This document shows positions 15,804-25,113 of a stretch of 25,113 nt of DNA, one piece after another. The first letter of the stretch is position 1. Every line of letters begins with the position of its first letter. The position numbers and the translations under genes were made by a program. The notes beneath the pieces are model-generated. The model was given only the letters and a program-made list of their open reading frames with translations. It did no database searches and was not told where the DNA came from. The stretch is from a virus. The stretch covers positions 1 to 25,113 of the IMG/VR virus record IMGVR_UViG_3300044712_002117. One strand, given 5' to 3'.

Positions 15804-17849
15804 TTATCTCCATGCTGTGATCATGCAATCACAGCCATCGTGGGCGGGCGGATGCCCAATATCGTTATTAACTCGCAGGGGACTATCAGCACCTTCCGGC
15901 TGGTAGCTTTCACCGGAAGCAATAAAGGTTTGTTCGACGCCCACCACGGCGCCATCCAGGTTGGAACAATACGGGCAGGACTTGTTGAACGAACGCCAGC
16001 GGATCTTCACGAAGCCTGCCGCCACATACACCATGCGTGCAGTGGCATTGTTCTCACGCGTAGACTCCAGCCGTGCGATCTCATCCGCACGCACATCCTG
16101 ATATGCATCGAGTGACTCATCCAATGCAGCGATCGGGTCTTCAGTCTCCAGCGCTGCCTGGATCCGCTTGCGAACATTCTCCAAGCTGATACCGGCATGC
16201 CGTGCTGCGTACATGTTGATGTAACTACGCACGAAGCGGTCCACCTGGTCGTTGAATTGTCCATCGGTAGCATTCACTTCATCGCCTGCCACACCAGCTA
16301 CCATATCGGCATAGGCGCTCATCACCGGTGTGAATTGACGTCGCACCAGTTCCTCATGCCGCTGGTAATATTGGTTGAGCCATAGATCCATTGATTGCGC
16401 ATCGCGCTTGCCTAAGCTCTTCTTGGCGGCATCCATCACATCGCGCATCTCGCGTCGTAAGACTCTCGCCGCCGTGTCGCGGAAGACCTTGCGCTGCGAT
16501 AACATCATGCGCCTGCGTGATGCCGCTGAGCGATTGGAGCGCAACTCACGATCATCAACAGTAGCAGCAGTGGCTCGTGTCTCAATGACTGGCGCATCTG
16601 CTCCACCGAGGTATCGCAATCCAGTAGAGTTATTTCCATCAACCGGCTGACTTAATTGATCAATAGTCGCCAAGTTGAGCGGAGCGAGATACACGTCACC
16701 ACCTTTGTATGGGTTCATGTTCTCTTTTTCACGGGCTTCGTTGGGGGATAAGAAACCCGTGGTTATACCTTGCACGAAAGCGGTGTAACGAGTTGCCAGA
16801 TCTGCACGCAGCAGGGCATCCACCAGGTGTTCAGCAAAATAGGTTTTGCGTTCGGTTGGGGTTAGCAAACTGCGGGAGATCTCCTGCTCCCAACGCACGA
16901 ACCAGGGCTGCATCGTGTACTTGATAAAACGTTCCCCGAATTGTTCAACGCTGGCATACGTCGCAGCTTTATCGCTTTCCGCCAGCATATCAAGCGAGAT
17001 ACCATACAACCGCGCGATGTCGGCGGTACCATATTGCAAGATACTTAAGAGTTCGGAATCTTTGTTGTCGACCCCAAGTTTTTCAACGCTCAAACCGTCT
17101 TCCAAAATGGCAAGCCGATGAGCATTCTCCAGCCCACGATGACGCGCTTCCCAATCACCCTTGATGCGTAAATAGGCTTTGTCGCTCAACTCTTTATCGC
17201 TCTTGAGAACAATGCCTGGCTCAGCGTTGTTGCCAAAGAAACGCGCGATATATTCCTGCACAGCCATTGACATGCCGATGGAGTGACGTGACTGTTGAAT
17301 CGGACTCAATGCCCATAAGCCATTGGTGGTGAACCAGCGTATATGCAGAATGTGATCTGAGGGCAGCCCCACATCCTGACCGCCTACTGAATCGGGCAAA
17401 GTGTAGATATAAACCAGCTTGCCATTGACGCGTTCCATTCGACGGACTTTGTCAGGGTTGAGCGGCCAGAGATACTTCACCCGCCCGGCATTATCGAACT
17501 CGATCTCGGAGAGTCCATTACCACGCAATGCCACATGTCCGGTGATCGTCTGCCGATAGGTCATGGCAGTCATCTCGGGGTTGGAAACTTCTCGCAGAAT
17601 GGGATATAGGTAATAATCATGAGCGCGGGTTTGCCCACGTTCCAGGCGTTTATAGGTGATCAGCGGCAGCATTGCTTCAACGTCTGAAAGTAACCGCACG
17701 CAGGAGAGTACACTCATATTTTGCAGAGCTGTCTCAGGCGTGACTTCCACACCGCTGTTCGTGTCCCACCCATACGCAGAGCGCAGCCAGCTAGGTGGCT
17801 CACTGCTGGGATGGAAACGTTTCTGCACCATGCTTGGATTCGGTAACAC
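15804..17849 (-). CDS. Portal protein fused to a MuF-like head morphogenesis domain
   Basis: The protein has 681 residues. Residues 1 to about 400 are an HK97-type portal: VLSCVRLLSDVEAMLPL near the start, TGHVALRGNGLSEIEFD, the DHILHIRWFTTNGLWALSPIQ motif, NNAEPGIVLKSD, and the YASVEQFGERFIKYTMQPWFVRWEQEISRSLL helix. From about 440 to 681 there is a helical region ending in a MuF-type C-terminus: W-x-SFNKSCPYC-SNLDG (Cys 625, 628) and IGHPPAHDGCDC (666-675), with the Cys/His spacing of that family. Portals normally stand alone with MuF as the next gene; here both are in one frame. The start is GTG at 17849, right after the previous TAA, with GGAG nine bases upstream. Confidence 0.92.
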   Translation of the reverse strand: MLPNPSMVQKRFHPSSEPPSWLRSAYGWDTNSGVEVTPETALQNMSVLSCVRLLSDVEAMLPLITYKRLERGQTRAHDYYLYPILREVSNPEMTAMTYRQTITGHVALRGNGLSEIEFDNAGRVKYLWPLNPDKVRRMERVNGKLVYIYTLPDSVGGQDVGLPSDHILHIRWFTTNGLWALSPIQQSRHSIGMSMAVQEYIARFFGNNAEPGIVLKSDKELSDKAYLRIKGDWEARHRGLENAHRLAILEDGLSVEKLGVDNKDSELLSILQYGTADIARLYGISLDMLAESDKAATYASVEQFGERFIKYTMQPWFVRWEQEISRSLLTPTERKTYFAEHLVDALLRADLATRYTAFVQGITTGFLSPNEAREKENMNPYKGGDVYLAPLNLATIDQLSQPVDGNNSTGLRYLGGADAPVIETRATAATVDDRELRSNRSAASRRRMMLSQRKVFRDTAARVLRREMRDVMDAAKKSLGKRDAQSMDLWLNQYYQRHEELVRRQFTPVMSAYADMVAGVAGDEVNATDGQFNDQVDRFVRSYINMYAARHAGISLENVRKRIQAALETEDPIAALDESLDAYQDVRADEIARLESTRENNATARMVYVAAGFVKIRWRSFNKSCPYCSNLDGAVVGVEQTFIASGESYQPEGADSPLRVNNDIGHPPAHDGCDCMITAWR

Positions 17850-19056: not shown

Positions 19057-19095
19057 AAACAAAAACGCCCGACGACTCATGTGAGTCGTCGGGCG
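19057..19095 (-). terminator. Intrinsic terminator
   Basis: A 14-bp perfect stem (arms CGCCCGACGACTCA and complement at 19066-19079 and 19082-19095, with TG at the plus-strand centre) is followed on the minus strand by GTTTTTGTTT, a U-tract. There is no U-tract on the plus side, so it works for minus-strand transcripts. It ends the small RNA and probably reads from the two-gene cassette, and lies just upstream of the first late small gene. Confidence 0.9.
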
Positions 19096-19187
19096 CATCA
19101 GTTCCGACTAGCGTCCCGGTCTACACCAGGACTGCATAAATTATATAAATGTGGCGAGCGGCTTGAGGGGGGCAAGTCGCCCACCAC
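19057..19187 (-). ncRNA. Candidate structured small RNA (about 130 nt), three hairpins
   Basis: A self-contained transcription unit. From the predicted start G19187 the RNA forms (1) a 15-bp stem, GTGGTGGGCGACTTG with 19165-19151, loop CCCCCCT; (2) after an A/U linker, a 7-bp stem GTCCTGG/CCGGGAC with a 6-base loop at 19132-19113; (3) the 14-bp terminator stem. Stem 1 contains two G-U pairs and one A-C mismatch read as minus-strand RNA; read as plus strand the wobbles become C-A mismatches, so the minus strand is the folded one. There is no open frame of useful size. I do not recognise an RNA family. Its G19187 start coincides with the first stem base, as expected for a real RNA 5' end. Confidence 0.72.
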
Positions 19188-19193
19188 AAAAAT

Positions 19194-19222
19194 AGTTTAG
19201 CATTTTGAATTTAATATGTCAA
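19194..19222 (-). promoter_or_regulatory. Promoter of the structured small RNA
   Basis: A perfect -35 TTGACA (19222-19217), a 17-base spacer, and -10 TAAACT (19199-19194; four of six consensus bases). The predicted start is six to seven bases on, at G19187, the first base of stem 1. Unlike the two promoters at 20710-20848, the spacer holds no GAAC-N4-GTTC palindrome. Confidence 0.7.
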
Positions 19223-19279: not shown

Positions 19280-19744
19280 CTATTTATTATCTTTTCTGGA
19301 TGTATTATGATTTTCGAACTGCAAAATCACAAAGACACTATTTGCTGTGTCATACAAAATATAAATAGCATACGAGAAGATGGCAACCAAGATTACTTCG
19401 GTAATGAAGGTCACTAATGGATAGTTCGTACTGATCAATGAACTTGATCCGATTACTTGGGTGATAAGAGCAAGAACTACTAAGGCGATTTGTTCAGCAA
19501 TAGAAGCTTTCATCTCTTTAGCCGTTCGAGAAAAATCTCCTCCAAGCTGATCTGATATTTCTCGAATTTTAGTCAACACAACACTTATTGTAGTTGTATT
19601 GATTGCCACTAATGCAATTAATAATGTAATCAAATTCTCAGACAAAAATTTTGAAATGAAATTGGATTGCAGTTGATGATCCAGCCAAGTAATCAAAATG
19701 CCAACCACAAGGAACAAACTTATATTTTTTGCGTGCTCCATCAT
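19280..19744 (-). CDS. Four-helix membrane protein of AT-rich two-gene cassette
   Basis: The protein has 154 residues. Hydrophobic helices are at about 8-22, 36-58, 83-98 and 108-131; between helices 2 and 3 is a charged cytoplasmic loop with KIREISDQLGGDFSRTAKEMKAS. The end, NHNTSRKDNK, is polar. The ATGATGG start overlaps the stop of the upstream gene as ATGA, so the two are made together. Base composition is much more AT-rich than the phage genes on either side, a sign of recent acquisition. The pair looks like a lysogenic-conversion cassette; a membrane effector of an anti-phage or superinfection-exclusion system is one possibility. No family recognised. Confidence 0.75.
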   Translation of the reverse strand: MMEHAKNISLFLVVGILITWLDHQLQSNFISKFLSENLITLLIALVAINTTTISVVLTKIREISDQLGGDFSRTAKEMKASIAEQIALVVLALITQVIGSSSLISTNYPLVTFITEVILVAIFSYAIYILYDTANSVFVILQFENHNTSRKDNK

Positions 19745-20604
19745 TGCAACATCTTCCTTAATTGATCAACCAAATCTTCCGGGATGTTCTCGCCAGTAAA
19801 ATATATCTCATCTACTTCGGTTGATTTGATACTGTCCTCTGTTTTAATTAATTTTCTCAGCCCCTTGATTTTCAGATGTACTGTTCCCCCTCCTTCCGAA
19901 GCGTAATTAACTAGACTATTAGTGAAACTGTCACTTTCTGATAATGTCAACGACTCCTTATTTGGGGCCTGCAATGAAACATTCGTATGTAGTGAATTCG
20001 TTCTGCTTTTTATTTCTCCTAAATCCAATTCTAGTCCTTTAGATATATTAGCTAAATTAGGCGCAACCATATAAAATTGCGTCTTTGTAATTCGATTAGT
20101 ATGACTTTTAACAATATTCCAAAATTCGTTCTTTACAAACGTGGGAAGTACTTCTAATGTCAATCTGTAATTACGGAGTTTGTCATTTATATTTGAGATT
20201 AGAATATTGGAAACTGTTGACGTTCTATAAAAAGCCTCTTCTTCAAGTTCTATCGCTATCATTTGGCTATTTGGATCATTATTTATAACCACATAGACGG
20301 ACGGCCAGTTGTCAATTTCCTCCTTTTCAAAATCCTTTGTAAATCTGGTCAAGCTCCTATTTGCACCAATTTTCAGAACAAAGTACCCATTAACTTCATG
20401 AAGTTGATGAGTTAGTTCTGCTCGTGGATGATGGAATTCATTTAGATTCCGAATTACATCAGCAAAAAATTCATTTTTTCTGCTCTTTAATTCTTCTAAA
20501 CTCAATATTTGCTTTTGAGGGAAAAATAGGTCTAATTGTTCTTCGACGATAGTTGGCAGTATTTGAAACCGATACAACTGGAATGTGCGGCTGGTCTTAT
20601 TCAT
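19741..20604 (-). CDS. Unrecognised protein, putative partner of the four-helix membrane protein
   Basis: A 287-residue protein from ATG at 20604 with AAGGGG about eight bases upstream; an earlier ATG at 20652 overlaps a TATAAT and has a weak site. It has no membrane segment. Residues 1-110 start FQLYRFQILPTIVEEQLDLF, with a Lys/Glu-rich helix and a VVINNDPNSQMIAIE strand-turn; residues 130-185 have NDKLRNYRLTLEVLP and FYMVAPNLANIS; residues 230-260 have NYASEGGGTVHLKIKG, like a nucleotide- or nucleic-acid-binding beta element; the end is helical. I recall this kind of protein as a stand-alone family with conserved L.RFTKDFEKEEI.NWP.V.VVINNDP but cannot name it. It is AT-rich and driven by tandem LexA-box promoters. 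Confidence 0.75.
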   Translation of the reverse strand: MNKTSRTFQLYRFQILPTIVEEQLDLFFPQKQILSLEELKSRKNEFFADVIRNLNEFHHPRAELTHQLHEVNGYFVLKIGANRSLTRFTKDFEKEEIDNWPSVYVVINNDPNSQMIAIELEEEAFYRTSTVSNILISNINDKLRNYRLTLEVLPTFVKNEFWNIVKSHTNRITKTQFYMVAPNLANISKGLELDLGEIKSRTNSLHTNVSLQAPNKESLTLSESDSFTNSLVNYASEGGGTVHLKIKGLRKLIKTEDSIKSTEVDEIYFTGENIPEDLVDQLRKMLQ

Positions 20605-20709
20605 AAGAAGCCCCTTCACGATGAAAACAATTATTGAAACACGAGTTTTCATTATATCACCGCTTTTTTAAGAGCATGCCGCGCATTGTTTAGCCAGTTA
20701 TTTAAATTT

Positions 20710-20738
20710 ACTATAACAGAATATTTGTTCTATGTCAA
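20710..20738 (-). promoter_or_regulatory. Promoter B with LexA-like operator in spacer
   Basis: -35 TTGACA (20738-20733), 17-base spacer, -10 TATAGT (20715-20710). The spacer holds AGAATATTTGTTCT at 20718-20731, a palindrome with one mismatch in its five-base arms and the core of the Gram-positive SOS box. It points at the AT-rich cassette, leaving about 100 bases of leader. Regulator (host LexA or phage repressor) is inferred. Confidence 0.75.
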
Positions 20739-20773
20739 ACAAGCTGTTATGTTTGCTTTCTCAAATATTAAAC

Positions 20774-20812
20774 GACAAACGCCGGGGTGAGGGGGGCACC
20801 CAAGCGCTTGTC
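20774..20812 (-). promoter_or_regulatory. C-loop hairpin at the 5' end of the promoter A transcript
   Basis: A 16-bp stem (GACAAGCGCTTGGGTG with 20789-20774, two G-U wobbles and one U-C mismatch in minus-strand RNA) closes a CCCCCCT loop. The first base, G20812, lies at the expected start site of promoter A. Loop and stem length match stem 1 of the small RNA at 19151-19187. It could be the start of a second small RNA or a 5' leader element of the two-gene cassette mRNA. Confidence 0.75.
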
Positions 20813-20819
20813 ATTTAGG

Positions 20820-20848
20820 ATTTTAGAACAAACGTTCTGTTTTGTCAA
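20820..20848 (-). promoter_or_regulatory. Promoter A with perfect LexA-like operator in spacer
   Basis: -35 TTGACA (20848-20843), 17-base spacer, -10 TAAAAT (20825-20820). The palindrome AGAACAAACGTTCT at 20825-20838 lies in the spacer and matches GAAC-RNRY-GTTC exactly, the Gram-positive SOS box. The promoter begins just after the end of the gene at 20857-21087 and drives the leader hairpin and probably the AT-rich cassette. Confidence 0.8.
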
Positions 20849-21160: not shown

Positions 21161-22873
21161 TTATCCGATCATCCGCATGCCGCGCTTTTCGTAGACACTT
21201 TTAACTTCCGGATGACGTAATGCTAGGTCAATCGCCATGATCAACGCTACCATCCCGTCGATCTTTTCGCGGCTCGCAGCTTTGTCTGGCTTGATGTTCC
21301 CGGCTGGGTCCATGCGTGCGACCAGGTTATCAGCCATCCATGTGAGCACCGGGTTGTTGCCATGTCGTATCTTTTTACCAAGCACCAAACGTTCCAGCTC
21401 TTTCATGGGTGGGTTCATACTCGCGAAGCCTTGTCCAAATTGTGCCATTGTCATGCCTTTCTTTTCGAGTACCTGCACCACACGAGCTGCTCCCCAACGG
21501 TCGAAGGCGCTTTGGTCGATATCGAACATCTCGCGGTCCTTTTCGATCTGCTCGAAGATCCAGTCATAATCGATCACGTTCCCTGGCGTGGCTTCGATAT
21601 AGCCCTGCTCAACCCATTGTCGATAATGCACACCATCATCGCGGGTGCGGATCAGCATGTTATCCTCCGGGATCCAGAAGCGACAGATCACGTCAATGTA
21701 ATCATCGTCATCTGGAAAGACCATAACGAATGCTGTAATGTCTGATGTGCTTGATAAATCCAAGCCTCCATAACAAGTCATATCCTTCAGCCGCTTGGGC
21801 ATTTCCAAGGCAGGAACTTCACCTGCGCACTCACGCCAGCGGTCCATCGGCATCCACTTGATCTCGCCCTGCACCCACACATTCAACTCACGCCGTAGGA
21901 AGTTGTTGAGCGCCGCTGCCATCTGCTCGGCGCGCTTGGCTTTCATACGCAGATCCTCGATATATTTTGAGACTCCCAGGTTGGGGTTGGCTTTGATCCA
22001 CACGCTTTCATCGCGCCAATCATCCCCATCATCGAGGGTGTAGATGATGCCGAACCAGGTATCGTCTTCGAATGATCCGTCTTTCCAGCCCTCGAGTACC
22101 TTACGGGTGTATTCGTGTTTCTCATAACACACACTGCGACGGTCAATGCCAGCCGTAGTGATGGCGATGATCATTGGCTGTTCACGCGAGCCAGTCGCAG
22201 TCTCAAGCACATCCCACATCTCACGCGACTTCCAGGCATGGAGCTCATCAGCCACGACTCCGTGGACGTTAAGTCCGTCCGTAGAATCCGAGTCAGCTCC
22301 CAACGGTTCGTATTTGCTGGCGGTTGCTTCGAGATTGAGATTATCTTTATAGACCTTGATGTACTTCCGCAGCCCAGCATTTTTACGGACCATACGGATC
22401 GCTTCTTTATGCACGATGCGAGCTTGATCCCGTTTCGTCGCAGCGCTATATACTTCCGCGCCTGGTTCGCCATCTGCAAACGCCAGATACAAACCTTCAC
22501 CACTCGCCTCTGTGGATTTTCCGTTCTTCCTTGCGACCTCTTTGTAAATAACACGGAAGCGCCGCATCCCATCGGCACGCATCCAACCAAACGCCACCCA
22601 GATCGTGAATTGTTGCCACGGTTCGAGCCGGATAAAGTCACCCTTCCCACGTCCCCACTTCCCCTTGGAATGCCGGAGCATTTGAATGAAGTCGATAACG
22701 TATTGGCCTGCTGCTGCATCAAAGTAAAAACCGCGCTCATGCGCATGCTCAAGGTCGTGCACGTGACGTTCGCATGCCAGGCGCACCCACTTGCATGCGA
22801 CGATCTTGCCGTTGATTACATCCTGTGCATACTGTTCAGCAGGATGTAGAACCTCCTTCGTTGACTTTGTCAT
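21161..22873 (-). CDS. terL: Terminase large subunit
   Basis: The protein has 570 residues. N-terminal ATPase: adenine-binding region LEPWQQFTIW (about 83-92), Walker A-like VARKNGKST (113-121), Walker B GVVADELH (205-212, catalytic Glu 210), coupling motif ITTAG (238-242). C-terminal nuclease: Asp in GGLDLSS (about 372), an Asp in FDIDQSAFDRW (about 458), and Asp in REKIDGMVALIMAIDLAL (about 539). It powers DNA packaging through the portal and cuts the concatemer. The protein is of the TerL group associated with HK97-type heads and P27 small subunits. The start has no strong ribosome site and begins five bases after the small terminase stop, so coupling is likely. Confidence 0.96.
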   Translation of the reverse strand: MTKSTKEVLHPAEQYAQDVINGKIVACKWVRLACERHVHDLEHAHERGFYFDAAAGQYVIDFIQMLRHSKGKWGRGKGDFIRLEPWQQFTIWVAFGWMRADGMRRFRVIYKEVARKNGKSTEASGEGLYLAFADGEPGAEVYSAATKRDQARIVHKEAIRMVRKNAGLRKYIKVYKDNLNLEATASKYEPLGADSDSTDGLNVHGVVADELHAWKSREMWDVLETATGSREQPMIIAITTAGIDRRSVCYEKHEYTRKVLEGWKDGSFEDDTWFGIIYTLDDGDDWRDESVWIKANPNLGVSKYIEDLRMKAKRAEQMAAALNNFLRRELNVWVQGEIKWMPMDRWRECAGEVPALEMPKRLKDMTCYGGLDLSSTSDITAFVMVFPDDDDYIDVICRFWIPEDNMLIRTRDDGVHYRQWVEQGYIEATPGNVIDYDWIFEQIEKDREMFDIDQSAFDRWGAARVVQVLEKKGMTMAQFGQGFASMNPPMKELERLVLGKKIRHGNNPVLTWMADNLVARMDPAGNIKPDKAASREKIDGMVALIMAIDLALRHPEVKSVYEKRGMRMIG

Positions 22874-22878
22874 TCACG

Positions 22879-23355
22879 CTATTTCGCAACCTTCACTTTT
22901 TTGCCAAATAAAAATTCTGCCATCTCATCTTCTTCGGTGGGCGTTTCTACTTTCAATCGTGTCCGGCTCGATGGTGACATGCCGAACTCTGCATAGAATT
23001 TCATTACCTGATCCATTGAGCGCTTCTTGATCGCCACCCAGGGGTTTTGGTACATGCCGCCCAGGTCAGAGATGATCACATCACCTTGGATATGCAGCTT
23101 GTTGCACGCCTTCACATAATCTGCCCAGGCGGTGCAGCAGATCGCCAGCGCCGCACGATCGATCTTCGAGATCAACTTCAGCGCATGCAACTCCTTGGTA
23201 AGTCGTTTCCATTCTTCACGTGCCACGCCCTTCAAATGGTCGGGGCATTCTGGAATCGCAACATCTGGCTTTGGCTCCTGTTCATTCACCGCGCGTTTGC
23301 CCGGGTTCCCCTCGAGTTCTTTTATTACACTAGGCTTTGGTTTTCTGCCCCTCAC
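22879..23355 (-). CDS. terS: Terminase small subunit, P27 family (copy 1)
   Basis: A 158-residue protein with the P27 small-terminase opening RGRKPKPSVIKELEGNPGKRAVNEQEPKP, followed by P.CPDHLKG.AREEWKRL and the central YVKACNKL...NPWVAIKKRS helix, ending in FGMSPSSRTRLK. It recognises the packaging start and loads the large subunit. It starts with GTG at 23355, overlapping the methyltransferase stop as GTGA, and directly precedes TerL, the usual order. A second, similarly sized P27 gene is on the other side of the methyltransferase. Confidence 0.93.
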   Translation of the reverse strand: MRGRKPKPSVIKELEGNPGKRAVNEQEPKPDVAIPECPDHLKGVAREEWKRLTKELHALKLISKIDRAALAICCTAWADYVKACNKLHIQGDVIISDLGGMYQNPWVAIKKRSMDQVMKFYAEFGMSPSSRTRLKVETPTEEDEMAEFLFGKKVKVAK

Positions 23356-24590
23356 GTCACCTCCAAGGTGGGTTGTTCCCCAACCATCTGGGACCAGCGT
23401 TCCAGAGTGACTGCTACAAATTTCGGTTCATTGTCCATCGTGCGGCAGACTCGCCCCAATCGTTCACATGCAACCAACGTTGTCCCGGATCCTGCAAATA
23501 GATCGAGCACAATATTTCCAGGCTTGCTGGAGTTCGTCATAGATCGCTCCACCAGTTCGAGTGGTTTCATAGTGGGATGTTCCTCACTCTTTTTTGGGCG
23601 ATCAATAAACCACACGTCAGATTGTTTACGATCTTTCAATTCCTGCAGCCGCGCTGCGTCCCCATTCCAGCCGTACCACATGGGTTCGTATTGTGTGTGA
23701 TAATCTTTTCGTGACAAAACCAATTGATCCTTGCACCAGATGATGGTGCTAGACCAGTGAAATCCACGGGTCCGCAACCAGCGATCAATCAATGGCCATT
23801 CCTGGGCGCCCATCACTACATAGACTGGCGCGCCTGGCTTGCTGAATTCCATCATCAGGCCGGTAAATTTTTCGACAAAGAAATCGAAGTGCGGCCCGAG
23901 GTTGTCATTATTGATCGTGCGTACTTTGTAGCCTTGGACGTTTCCTTTTTCCACTGCACCATAATTGACATTCCAAGGCGGATCACTCCAGATCATCTCT
24001 GCGAGATCTTCTCCCATCAACCGTCGTACATTCGTTCTGATCGTTGAATCCCCACACATCAGCCGATGCTTTCCAAGCAACCAAACCTGTCCAACTTTGA
24101 CCTGCCATTTAGCGAGCAGCTCTTCAGCCAGGTCCAGCTCCGGACCGGGATCCTCCACGGTGGGATTTGTTTCTGTAGAAACACCCACCAGCTCCTCCAA
24201 TTCAGCTGGTTCGAAGCCGGTAAATAAATCACCAGTGGTGCTGGCTATCTCGCGCAATACATCTTCATCCCAACGACTGAATTCACCCACACGGTTGTCC
24301 GCAATTCCAAACGCTGCGGCTGTCATTGGGTCATCGTCCACGAAGACCACGGCCACATGACTCCAACCCAGCTCCCTCGCTGCGCGATAGGTGCCATTGC
24401 CTGCCTCGATCTTCCCATCCTGCAAGCGGTTGGCAACGATAGGCTTACGTTGCTTATAAGCTTTGAGCGAAGCCGCGATGCGTGCCACATCATGATCCAC
24501 GCGCGCGTTGGCGGGGTCTTCGTGCAGGGTTTCAATCGGTACAGCCAGTGGACACAGACTTTCGGCGATGTAAGTTAATTCTTCAGTCAT
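23352..24590 (-). CDS. ParB-domain DNA methyltransferase (N4/N6 type)
   Basis: The protein has 412 residues. Residues about 15-100 are a ParB/Srx-like N-terminal domain (AASLKAYKQRKPIVAN..., EAGNGTYRAARELGW), residues about 160-400 are an N-4 cytosine / N-6 adenine methylase: motif DPPW at 203-206, FAGSGTT at 365-371 near the C-terminus, with EHPTMKP (about 337-343), the order of the beta class. It would methylate phage or host DNA, for example to avoid host restriction or mark the packaging site. The ParB part may give site specificity. It overlaps a small terminase gene on both sides by four bases (ATGA and GTGA), so all three are translated together. No restriction partner is seen. Confidence 0.92.
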   Translation of the reverse strand: MTEELTYIAESLCPLAVPIETLHEDPANARVDHDVARIAASLKAYKQRKPIVANRLQDGKIEAGNGTYRAARELGWSHVAVVFVDDDPMTAAAFGIADNRVGEFSRWDEDVLREIASTTGDLFTGFEPAELEELVGVSTETNPTVEDPGPELDLAEELLAKWQVKVGQVWLLGKHRLMCGDSTIRTNVRRLMGEDLAEMIWSDPPWNVNYGAVEKGNVQGYKVRTINNDNLGPHFDFFVEKFTGLMMEFSKPGAPVYVVMGAQEWPLIDRWLRTRGFHWSSTIIWCKDQLVLSRKDYHTQYEPMWYGWNGDAARLQELKDRKQSDVWFIDRPKKSEEHPTMKPLELVERSMTNSSKPGNIVLDLFAGSGTTLVACERLGRVCRTMDNEPKFVAVTLERWSQMVGEQPTLEVT

Positions 24591-25063
24591 TGTCCTACTC
24601 TCACTCTCGTTCCAAATAACATGCGCTCAAGTTCTTGATCAGGATCAGTCAAGTCTGTTTTGACTCTCGATCGACTACTAGGTGTCATGCCAAACTCAGT
24701 GCCTAGTTTATTGAGTTGCTCAAGCGCGCGATTGGCAATCGATAAATATGGATTTTGAATGATGTTCCCTGCAGCGGTCTTGATGATCTCGCCCTTATCG
24801 CGGACCATCTTTTCAGCCTTCAGCCAACGTACGAAGATCACGCAATACATCGCGAGCGCATCCTTATCGATTGTCGTGATCAAGCCGAGTGGATACAGCT
24901 CTTTGACTGTCAACTTCCACTTGGCTTTTTCATCATCACTCAAATGTTCCGGCGGCCGAGGCAACACGACTCTGGGCTTTGGCTCTGCATGGTTCAGCGC
25001 GCGCTTGCCTGGGTTGCCAGCCAGCAACTTTATTGCCGTTGGTTTTGGTTTTCTTCCTTGCAT
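24587..25063 (-). CDS. terS: Terminase small subunit paralogue, P27 family (copy 2)
   Basis: A 158-residue protein, equal in length to copy 1 and similar along its whole length: GRKPKP, GNPGKRA, EPKP, LGLI (or LKLI) then ID, GMTPSSRSR (or GMSPSSRTR), and a FG(T/K)(R/K)V(R/K)V end. It is the first gene of the window in transcription order. The ATG at 25063 has AGG about nine bases upstream, behind a run of nine Gs at 25074-25066. Either copy could be the working subunit; copy 1 is next to TerL. Duplication followed by divergence, or acquisition of a second P27 gene (some HNH-linked P27 proteins exist), would both explain it. Confidence 0.9.
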   Translation of the reverse strand: MQGRKPKPTAIKLLAGNPGKRALNHAEPKPRVVLPRPPEHLSDDEKAKWKLTVKELYPLGLITTIDKDALAMYCVIFVRWLKAEKMVRDKGEIIKTAAGNIIQNPYLSIANRALEQLNKLGTEFGMTPSSRSRVKTDLTDPDQELERMLFGTRVRVGQ

Positions 25064-25113
25064 TCATGCGCCTACCCCCCCCCTACCTAATTTCGCGGGT
25101 ACGCGCGCAAAAC

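Follow-up and report, generated by a model that had tools for sequence, protein, structure and literature searches.

A promoter-linked hairpin RNA family with a CCCCCCU loop in Anaerolineales and their phages

Two short hairpins, H2 and H1, encoded on the minus strand of a 25,113-nucleotide viral sequence (IMG/VR record IMGVR_UViG_3300044712_002117, positions 1 to 25,113; hereafter the window) belong, as we can say with near certainty, to a conserved RNA hairpin family. This family of tiny C-loop RNAs, in which a promoter is followed at once by one hairpin, is so far undescribed. It is mainly a host small RNA of the bacterial order Anaerolineales, very probably encoded by stand-alone genes and not by leaders, and the phage copies are a subset of it. 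As to what the hairpins do, the explanation that we favour, with only modest confidence, is that H2 and H1 are very short regulatory RNA genes whose C-rich loop pairs with G-tracts.

H2 lies at 20774..20812, where the minus strand (20812 to 20774) reads GACAAGCGCUUGGGUG-CCCCCCU-CACCCCGGCGUUUGUC. It starts at the predicted +1, and its assignment is based on its fold, on its match to the family (A1/R1) and on covariation. It folds into 15 pairs with one U·C mismatch below the CCCCCCU loop (-22.8 kcal/mol, z -5.4). Its sister H1 (19151..19187, minus strand, read from 19187 to 19151) has 14 pairs, an A·C mismatch and the same loop (-20.0 kcal/mol, z -4.0), and contains a 19-mer core that is found exactly elsewhere. 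The first-pass annotation of this DNA, which had noticed two hairpins with a common loop, was thus right about their existence and position; the stems of 16 and 15 bp that it gave are real but one pair too long each, the mismatch having been counted as a pair. Its count of two minus-strand G·U pairs per hairpin also holds, and the plus strands fold less well (-18.2 kcal/mol for H2 and -17.9 for H1). The contig contains only two copies of the 11-mer that H1 and H2 share, and none of its reversed control pattern. Both hairpins begin 6-7 nt past the -10 box of a near-consensus promoter, i.e. at or near the +1 of TTGACA promoters, as had been proposed: TTGACA-17-TAAAAT for H2 (20820..20848, minus strand), with relatives having the same distance between -10 box and loop, and TTGACA-17-TAAACT for H1 (19194..19222, minus strand), which has a TG before the -10 box and is without a LexA box. 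On the 3′ side, H2 is followed by an A/U-rich tail, GUUUAAUAUUU (20763..20773, minus strand), the probable 3′ end of a short RNA, since positions 2-4 past the stem are T-rich in phage and host copies alike and the sequences diverge beyond about 6 nt; H2's own U-tract is weak (GUUUAAUAUUU only). We infer an RNA of about 45 nt that would consist of one hairpin with its loop exposed.

Chance is excluded as the origin of these hairpins because they recur. The H1 19-mer core has exact matches in 12 other viral contigs, most of them directly behind a -10 box and with arms that are quite different yet still pair. A search for a promoter followed by TGCCCCCCTCA, in which the distance between the -10 box and the core was allowed to range over 10-38 nt, returned 58 viral contigs, as well as 42 contigs from a set of 84,980 species of bacteria and archaea. 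At 90 of the 95 sites this distance was 19-23 nt, which puts +1 at the foot of the stem. Chloroflexota is the label of 39 of the 42 genome contigs; nearly all of these are Anaerolineales, and they include the isolate Leptolinea tardivitalis, a genome with five copies. Of the three exceptions, L112 (a Bacteroidetes MAG) and L119 (a Bacteroidota MAG) are near letter-for-letter copies of phage L072 and Leptolinea L133 and are probably misbinned, and the site in L125 (Oscillospiraceae) is not a hairpin. Dropping the promoter from the motif was of no use, the matches to the 17-mer GGTTG-C6T-CAACC being mostly chance occurrences inside genes, and a blastn comparison with GenBank phages and plasmids gave no useful match. 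In sum about 100 promoter-linked copies, with sigma70-type promoters and hairpins of 14-17 bp, were obtained, so that the further hairpins at transcript 5′ ends which the first-pass annotation had anticipated do exist. The same phages contain a second class of promoter-proximal hairpins of 17-18 bp (L034 at 5968, minus strand; L046 at 9106, plus; L005 at 1845, minus; L064 at 3979, plus), with the palindromic apical sequences TGCGGGCCCGCA, ATGGGCGCCCAT and GCGGGTGCCCGC; these may represent a sister RNA, dimerising through kissing loops. Another arrangement is seen in L004 (1880-2400), where a noncoding phage segment of about 500 nt that also holds tRNA-like T-arm sequences has four C6U hairpins, not all behind promoters, and looks like a multi-hairpin RNA.

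The pattern of substitutions indicates that it is the RNA which is under selection. In 61 non-redundant copies, standard pairs occupy 93.3% of the pair cells, compared to 57.1% when the partners are shuffled and 35-44% when they are slid, and 355 pair cells are changed on both sides where 111 are expected. Leaving aside pair 5 (counted from the loop), G·U combinations on the RNA strand (87) far outnumber A·C combinations (11), and it follows that the minus-strand RNA is the selected form. The CCCCCCU loop is present in all 61 aligned copies. Since the first searches fixed the core, a second scan demanded only a promoter and CCCCCC: the 25 hits that form a hairpin all have the loop CCCCCCT closed by a G-C pair, and the pair next to it is U-A in 23 cases and C-G in 2. 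Drift of the loop, to C5U, UC6U, C7U and C8, is seen among weak matches to a covariance model. The earlier proposal of a selected RNA motif instead of a copied DNA repeat is therefore well supported, pairing being kept in varied arms far above the level of the shuffled and slid controls, and the loop and its closing pair being fixed even where the scan did not prescribe them.

Selection at the level of the DNA, i.e. a recombination or insertion site or a cruciform protein site that would mark a slot for accessory (moron) genes between terminase and portal, is very improbable: the slot does house variable cassettes, the one in the window lying exactly between H2 and H1 and missing in contig L007, but the strand-specific tolerance of G·U (87 versus 11), on which we rejected a transposon or insertion-site reading, the placement strictly at the promoter +1 and the stand-alone host copies at conserved chromosomal loci all speak against it.

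In the hosts, a covariance model of the hairpin (match threshold E <= 1e-6) finds it in 75 of 101 genomes sampled from the order to which L. tardivitalis belongs, in as many as 7 copies per genome, and in 8 of 120 genomes sampled evenly from the class. Of 81 genomes from the family, 77 contain the bare 11-mer, as a rule in 2-6 copies (reversed control, 0-1). The host copies are intergenic and often in tandem (L098, L102, L104, L107, L127, L135). The gene downstream of them is oriented at random (26 opposite to the hairpin and 23 in its direction), which argues that the host copies are not leaders. Some copies are intrinsic terminators in their own right, with the hairpin followed by T7-9 (L378, L380, L382, L384, L390); overall, at least five T among the 8 nt past the stem are seen in 29 of 96 host and 20 of 62 phage copies, and in both groups only a short A/U-rich tail is kept past the stem. 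One host locus, adjoining ftsK and/or a convergent class-V aminotransferase gene, is common to seven genomes, some of them distant, which argues for vertical inheritance. As a clue to function the conserved neighbours gave no lead, ftsK and the aminotransferase gene being found at one host locus and the others varying. The hairpin RNA is thus a multi-copy, intergenic and partly vertically inherited gene family of Anaerolineales. Own promoter, intergenic position and independence of the direction of the next gene are all found in the host copies, which, judging from these sequence features, are very probably stand-alone small RNA genes.

The phage copies occupy a fixed place. When the window proteins are mapped onto other contigs, the order is TerS1, methyltransferase, TerS2, TerL, (a 92-aa gene), hairpin, accessory genes and portal. 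The invariant neighbours of the hairpin slot are TerL upstream (21161..22873, minus strand) and the portal protein downstream (15804..17849, minus strand), and the arrangement is kept even where TerL identity is as low as 28-33%. Upstream of this slot, window positions 22879-25063 encode a fusion of a ParB-like protein and a DNA methyltransferase, flanked by two small terminase subunits that are paralogues (tblastn identity about 43%), an order kept in many relatives. The spacer of the H2 promoter contains a LexA/SOS-type operator, AGAACGTTTGTTCT (20825..20838, minus strand), a box that is also present in other phage hairpin promoters and in host lexA promoters. It occurs in 15 of 53 phage hairpin promoters, H2 included, and in 0 of 44 host hairpin promoters (0.2% expected). 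The AGAACN4GTTC box (core GAACN4GTTC) is located directly behind TTGACA in the lexA promoters of six out of seven Anaerolineales genomes, and the H2 operator is of the same type and at the same position. In L395-L400 GAACN4GTTC stands immediately after the TTGACA of the lexA promoters, and it is effectively the order's LexA box. As H2 and the lexA promoters share this box, the phage RNA is probably SOS-induced; we regard SOS control through the predicted H2 promoter operator as likely.

Between H2 and H1 the window has a two-gene cassette (19280..20652, minus strand) for a soluble 303-aa protein and a 154-aa membrane protein, neither of which belongs to a family in Pfam, PHROG, NCBIfam or PADLOC; it is a candidate moron or defence gene cassette. 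It has a promoter of its own, TTGACA-17-TATAGT (20710..20738, minus strand), with the LexA-type box AGAACAAATATTCT at 20718-20731. In L007, which is without the cassette, the H1 promoter is found directly 3′ of H2. H1 is followed by a second stem-loop, GUCCUGGUGUAGACCGGGAC (19111..19135, minus strand; kept in L006, L007, L009 and L010), and by a strong intrinsic terminator with a 14-bp stem and a T tail (19065..19096, minus strand), at which the H1 transcript would end after about 123 nt. The H1 RNA would thereby be longer and terminated, with three hairpins of which the one at its 5′ end has the CCCCCCU loop. This transcript (19065-19187, minus strand), with its several stem-loops and its strong terminator just before a 117-aa gene, contains GUCGG/CCGAC stretches for which an alternative pairing is possible, as in an attenuator.

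That the loop has a partner is a fair inference, and there is circumstantial support for an RNA, i.e. a G-tract, in this role. The exact complement of CCCCCCU is AGGGGGG, and in the window a candidate target, G9 preceded by A (25075..25083, minus strand; AGGGGGGGGG), is found 12 nt before the start of the first terminase small-subunit gene, TerS1 (24587..25063, minus strand; PF05119, phrog_83), whose leader thus includes the tract. AGGGGGG is kept before TerS1 in all 19 close relatives, as an unbroken AG7-10 in 17 and as AG6TG3-4 in two. The hairpin is present in all 14 of the unbroken-tract relatives that could be assessed, the other three being short contigs that need not reach the slot; in the two relatives with a broken tract the slot is present and the hairpin absent. 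This co-occurrence is suggestive, though the phages concerned are related to one another. AGGGGGG shows no general excess in the hairpin phages overall. The tract may instead be kept for packaging, for it is situated about 30 nt from what is apparently the cos end: the right end of the window (25083-25113) reads GTTTTGCGCGCG... on the minus strand, contigs L233 and L221 begin with the window's last base, others of the set L221, L222, L223, L227 and L233 start a few bases on from it, and the phage genome probably has its physical cos end here.

The mechanism that we propose is the following. Transcription would end behind the hairpin, which would double as terminator, and the paired 5′ end would make the RNA stable. 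The exposed C-rich loop would pair with G-tracts (AGGGGGG) beside ribosome-binding sites, lowering or tuning translation; that such pairing is the main mode of action seems to us somewhat more probable than the contrary. SOS induction would switch on the phage copy, which would add to the host pool or compete with it; its likely phage target would be the tract AGGGGGGG immediately ahead of the gene for the small terminase subunit. That TerS1 is the real target is possible but doubtful. A little more doubtful is the complete scenario, in which Anaerolineales phages carry an SOS-controlled copy of a minimal small RNA (about 45 nt, near-universal in the host order) that, acting on a G-tract of variable length next to cos, would adjust how strongly their own small terminase subunit is translated and would also feed into a host regulon of C-loop and G-tract.

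The main rival to loop pairing with G-tracts is a protein partner. The CCCCCCU loop, the fixed closing pairs and an R·Y pair five below it would then form the site of a C-binding host RNA-binding protein, which the multi-copy RNAs would titrate or recruit in the manner of a CsrB-like sponge and which the phage copies would divert. CsrB/RsmZ-type sponge RNAs have repeated identical hairpin loops on variable stems, with GGA loops and many of them per RNA, whereas most of the genes here have a single C6U hairpin, for which no binding protein is known. What favours a protein is above all the fifth pair from the loop, which in 71 of 71 copies is G-C, G·U or A·C and never A-U, C-G or U-A, the A·C accompanying the sub-type GACNUG...CANGCC; such a restriction is superfluous for simple loop pairing and a protein contact would explain it. 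The nearly fixed U-A/G-C closing pairs, the several copies per genome, the tandem pairs and the four hairpins in one noncoding stretch of L004 point the same way, as do the host genomes, in 12 of which AGGGGGG 3-15 nt before ATG is in no clear excess (384 occurrences versus 307 of the reversed pattern). Nevertheless we consider a protein partner unlikely: there is no candidate protein, the loop variants C5U, UC6U, C7U and C8 agree at least equally with pairing by C content, and the presence of the hairpin correlates with the TerS1 G-tract.

Another possibility, less probable again, is a cis-acting element, i.e. a leader hairpin at the 5′ end that would stabilise or attenuate the transcript of a downstream phage gene, as a stability stem or a promoter-proximal terminator. 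In the phages the downstream ORFs indeed tend to have the direction of the hairpin (43 out of 58), and the series of H1, second stem-loop and strong terminator before the 117-aa gene is attenuator-like. But a stability stem or a terminator needs no fixed loop sequence, many host copies end immediately in an intrinsic terminator, and a new promoter-like sequence comes right behind the hairpin in 33 of 61 phage copies. For the hosts, the random direction of the next gene rules out a leader or attenuator.

Pairing of a C-rich loop with G-tracts has precedents in other bacteria. In Helicobacter pylori, the C-rich loop in the terminator hairpin of RepG finds its pairing partner in a G-repeat of variable length within a 5′ UTR (PMC8295292). 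The hairpins described here may resemble RepG in having a C-rich loop in a terminator, as several host copies clearly do, and the G-repeat that RepG targets resembles the AG7-10 tract before TerS1; however, RepG is longer, has an extra stem-loop, belongs to another phylum and is not phage-borne, whereas here there is one hairpin and its target is a candidate. In Actinobacteria, the C-rich terminator loop of B11/6C binds G-tracks near ribosome sites (PMC12395582). The 6C RNAs (RF01066; PMC4046766, PMC12395582) have loops of about six C, and a loop of six or more C is found here as well, but they consist of two C-rich stem-loops in an RNA of about 100 nt from Actinomycetales, in contrast to the single C6U hairpin behind each promoter here, separate promoters being present for H1 and H2. 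The RF01066 model had no match in the window, in 17 carrier loci or in 10 carrier genomes (E<=1), the Corynebacterium glutamicum control being positive. sX13 of Xanthomonas acts, without Hfq, through exposed C-rich loops, one of them UCCCCCU, and its mRNA targets have G-rich motifs close to their start codons (PMC3771888); it has three stem-loops in one RNA and no sequence or taxonomic link to the C6U hairpins. The Chloroflexi-1 RNA (RF01698, PMC2864571) is a candidate structured RNA from the same phylum, but it is listed only for Chloroflexus aggregans and gave no gathering-score match at the hairpins. More generally, none of the 4227 families of Rfam 15 reached its gathering score at the hairpins when compared with the window and the carrier loci, only neighbouring tRNAs being found, and a search of the open-licence PMC literature found no paper on this hairpin family. 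By analogy, then, the hairpin RNA would work like RepG and 6C, yet be a member of neither.

The existence of an order-wide RNA family that is missing from Rfam concerns bacteria in which hardly any riboregulation has been studied. With a promoter, one hairpin and a loop that would be its active part, the gene has about the smallest architecture possible for a regulatory RNA. The one fixed spot that it occupies in very diverse phages, together with a LexA operator that is absent from host copies, points to the capture of a host riboregulator by phages. With this family, the pairing of C-rich loops with G-tracts, a mechanism known from RepG and 6C RNA, may also be put to the test in a simple setting.
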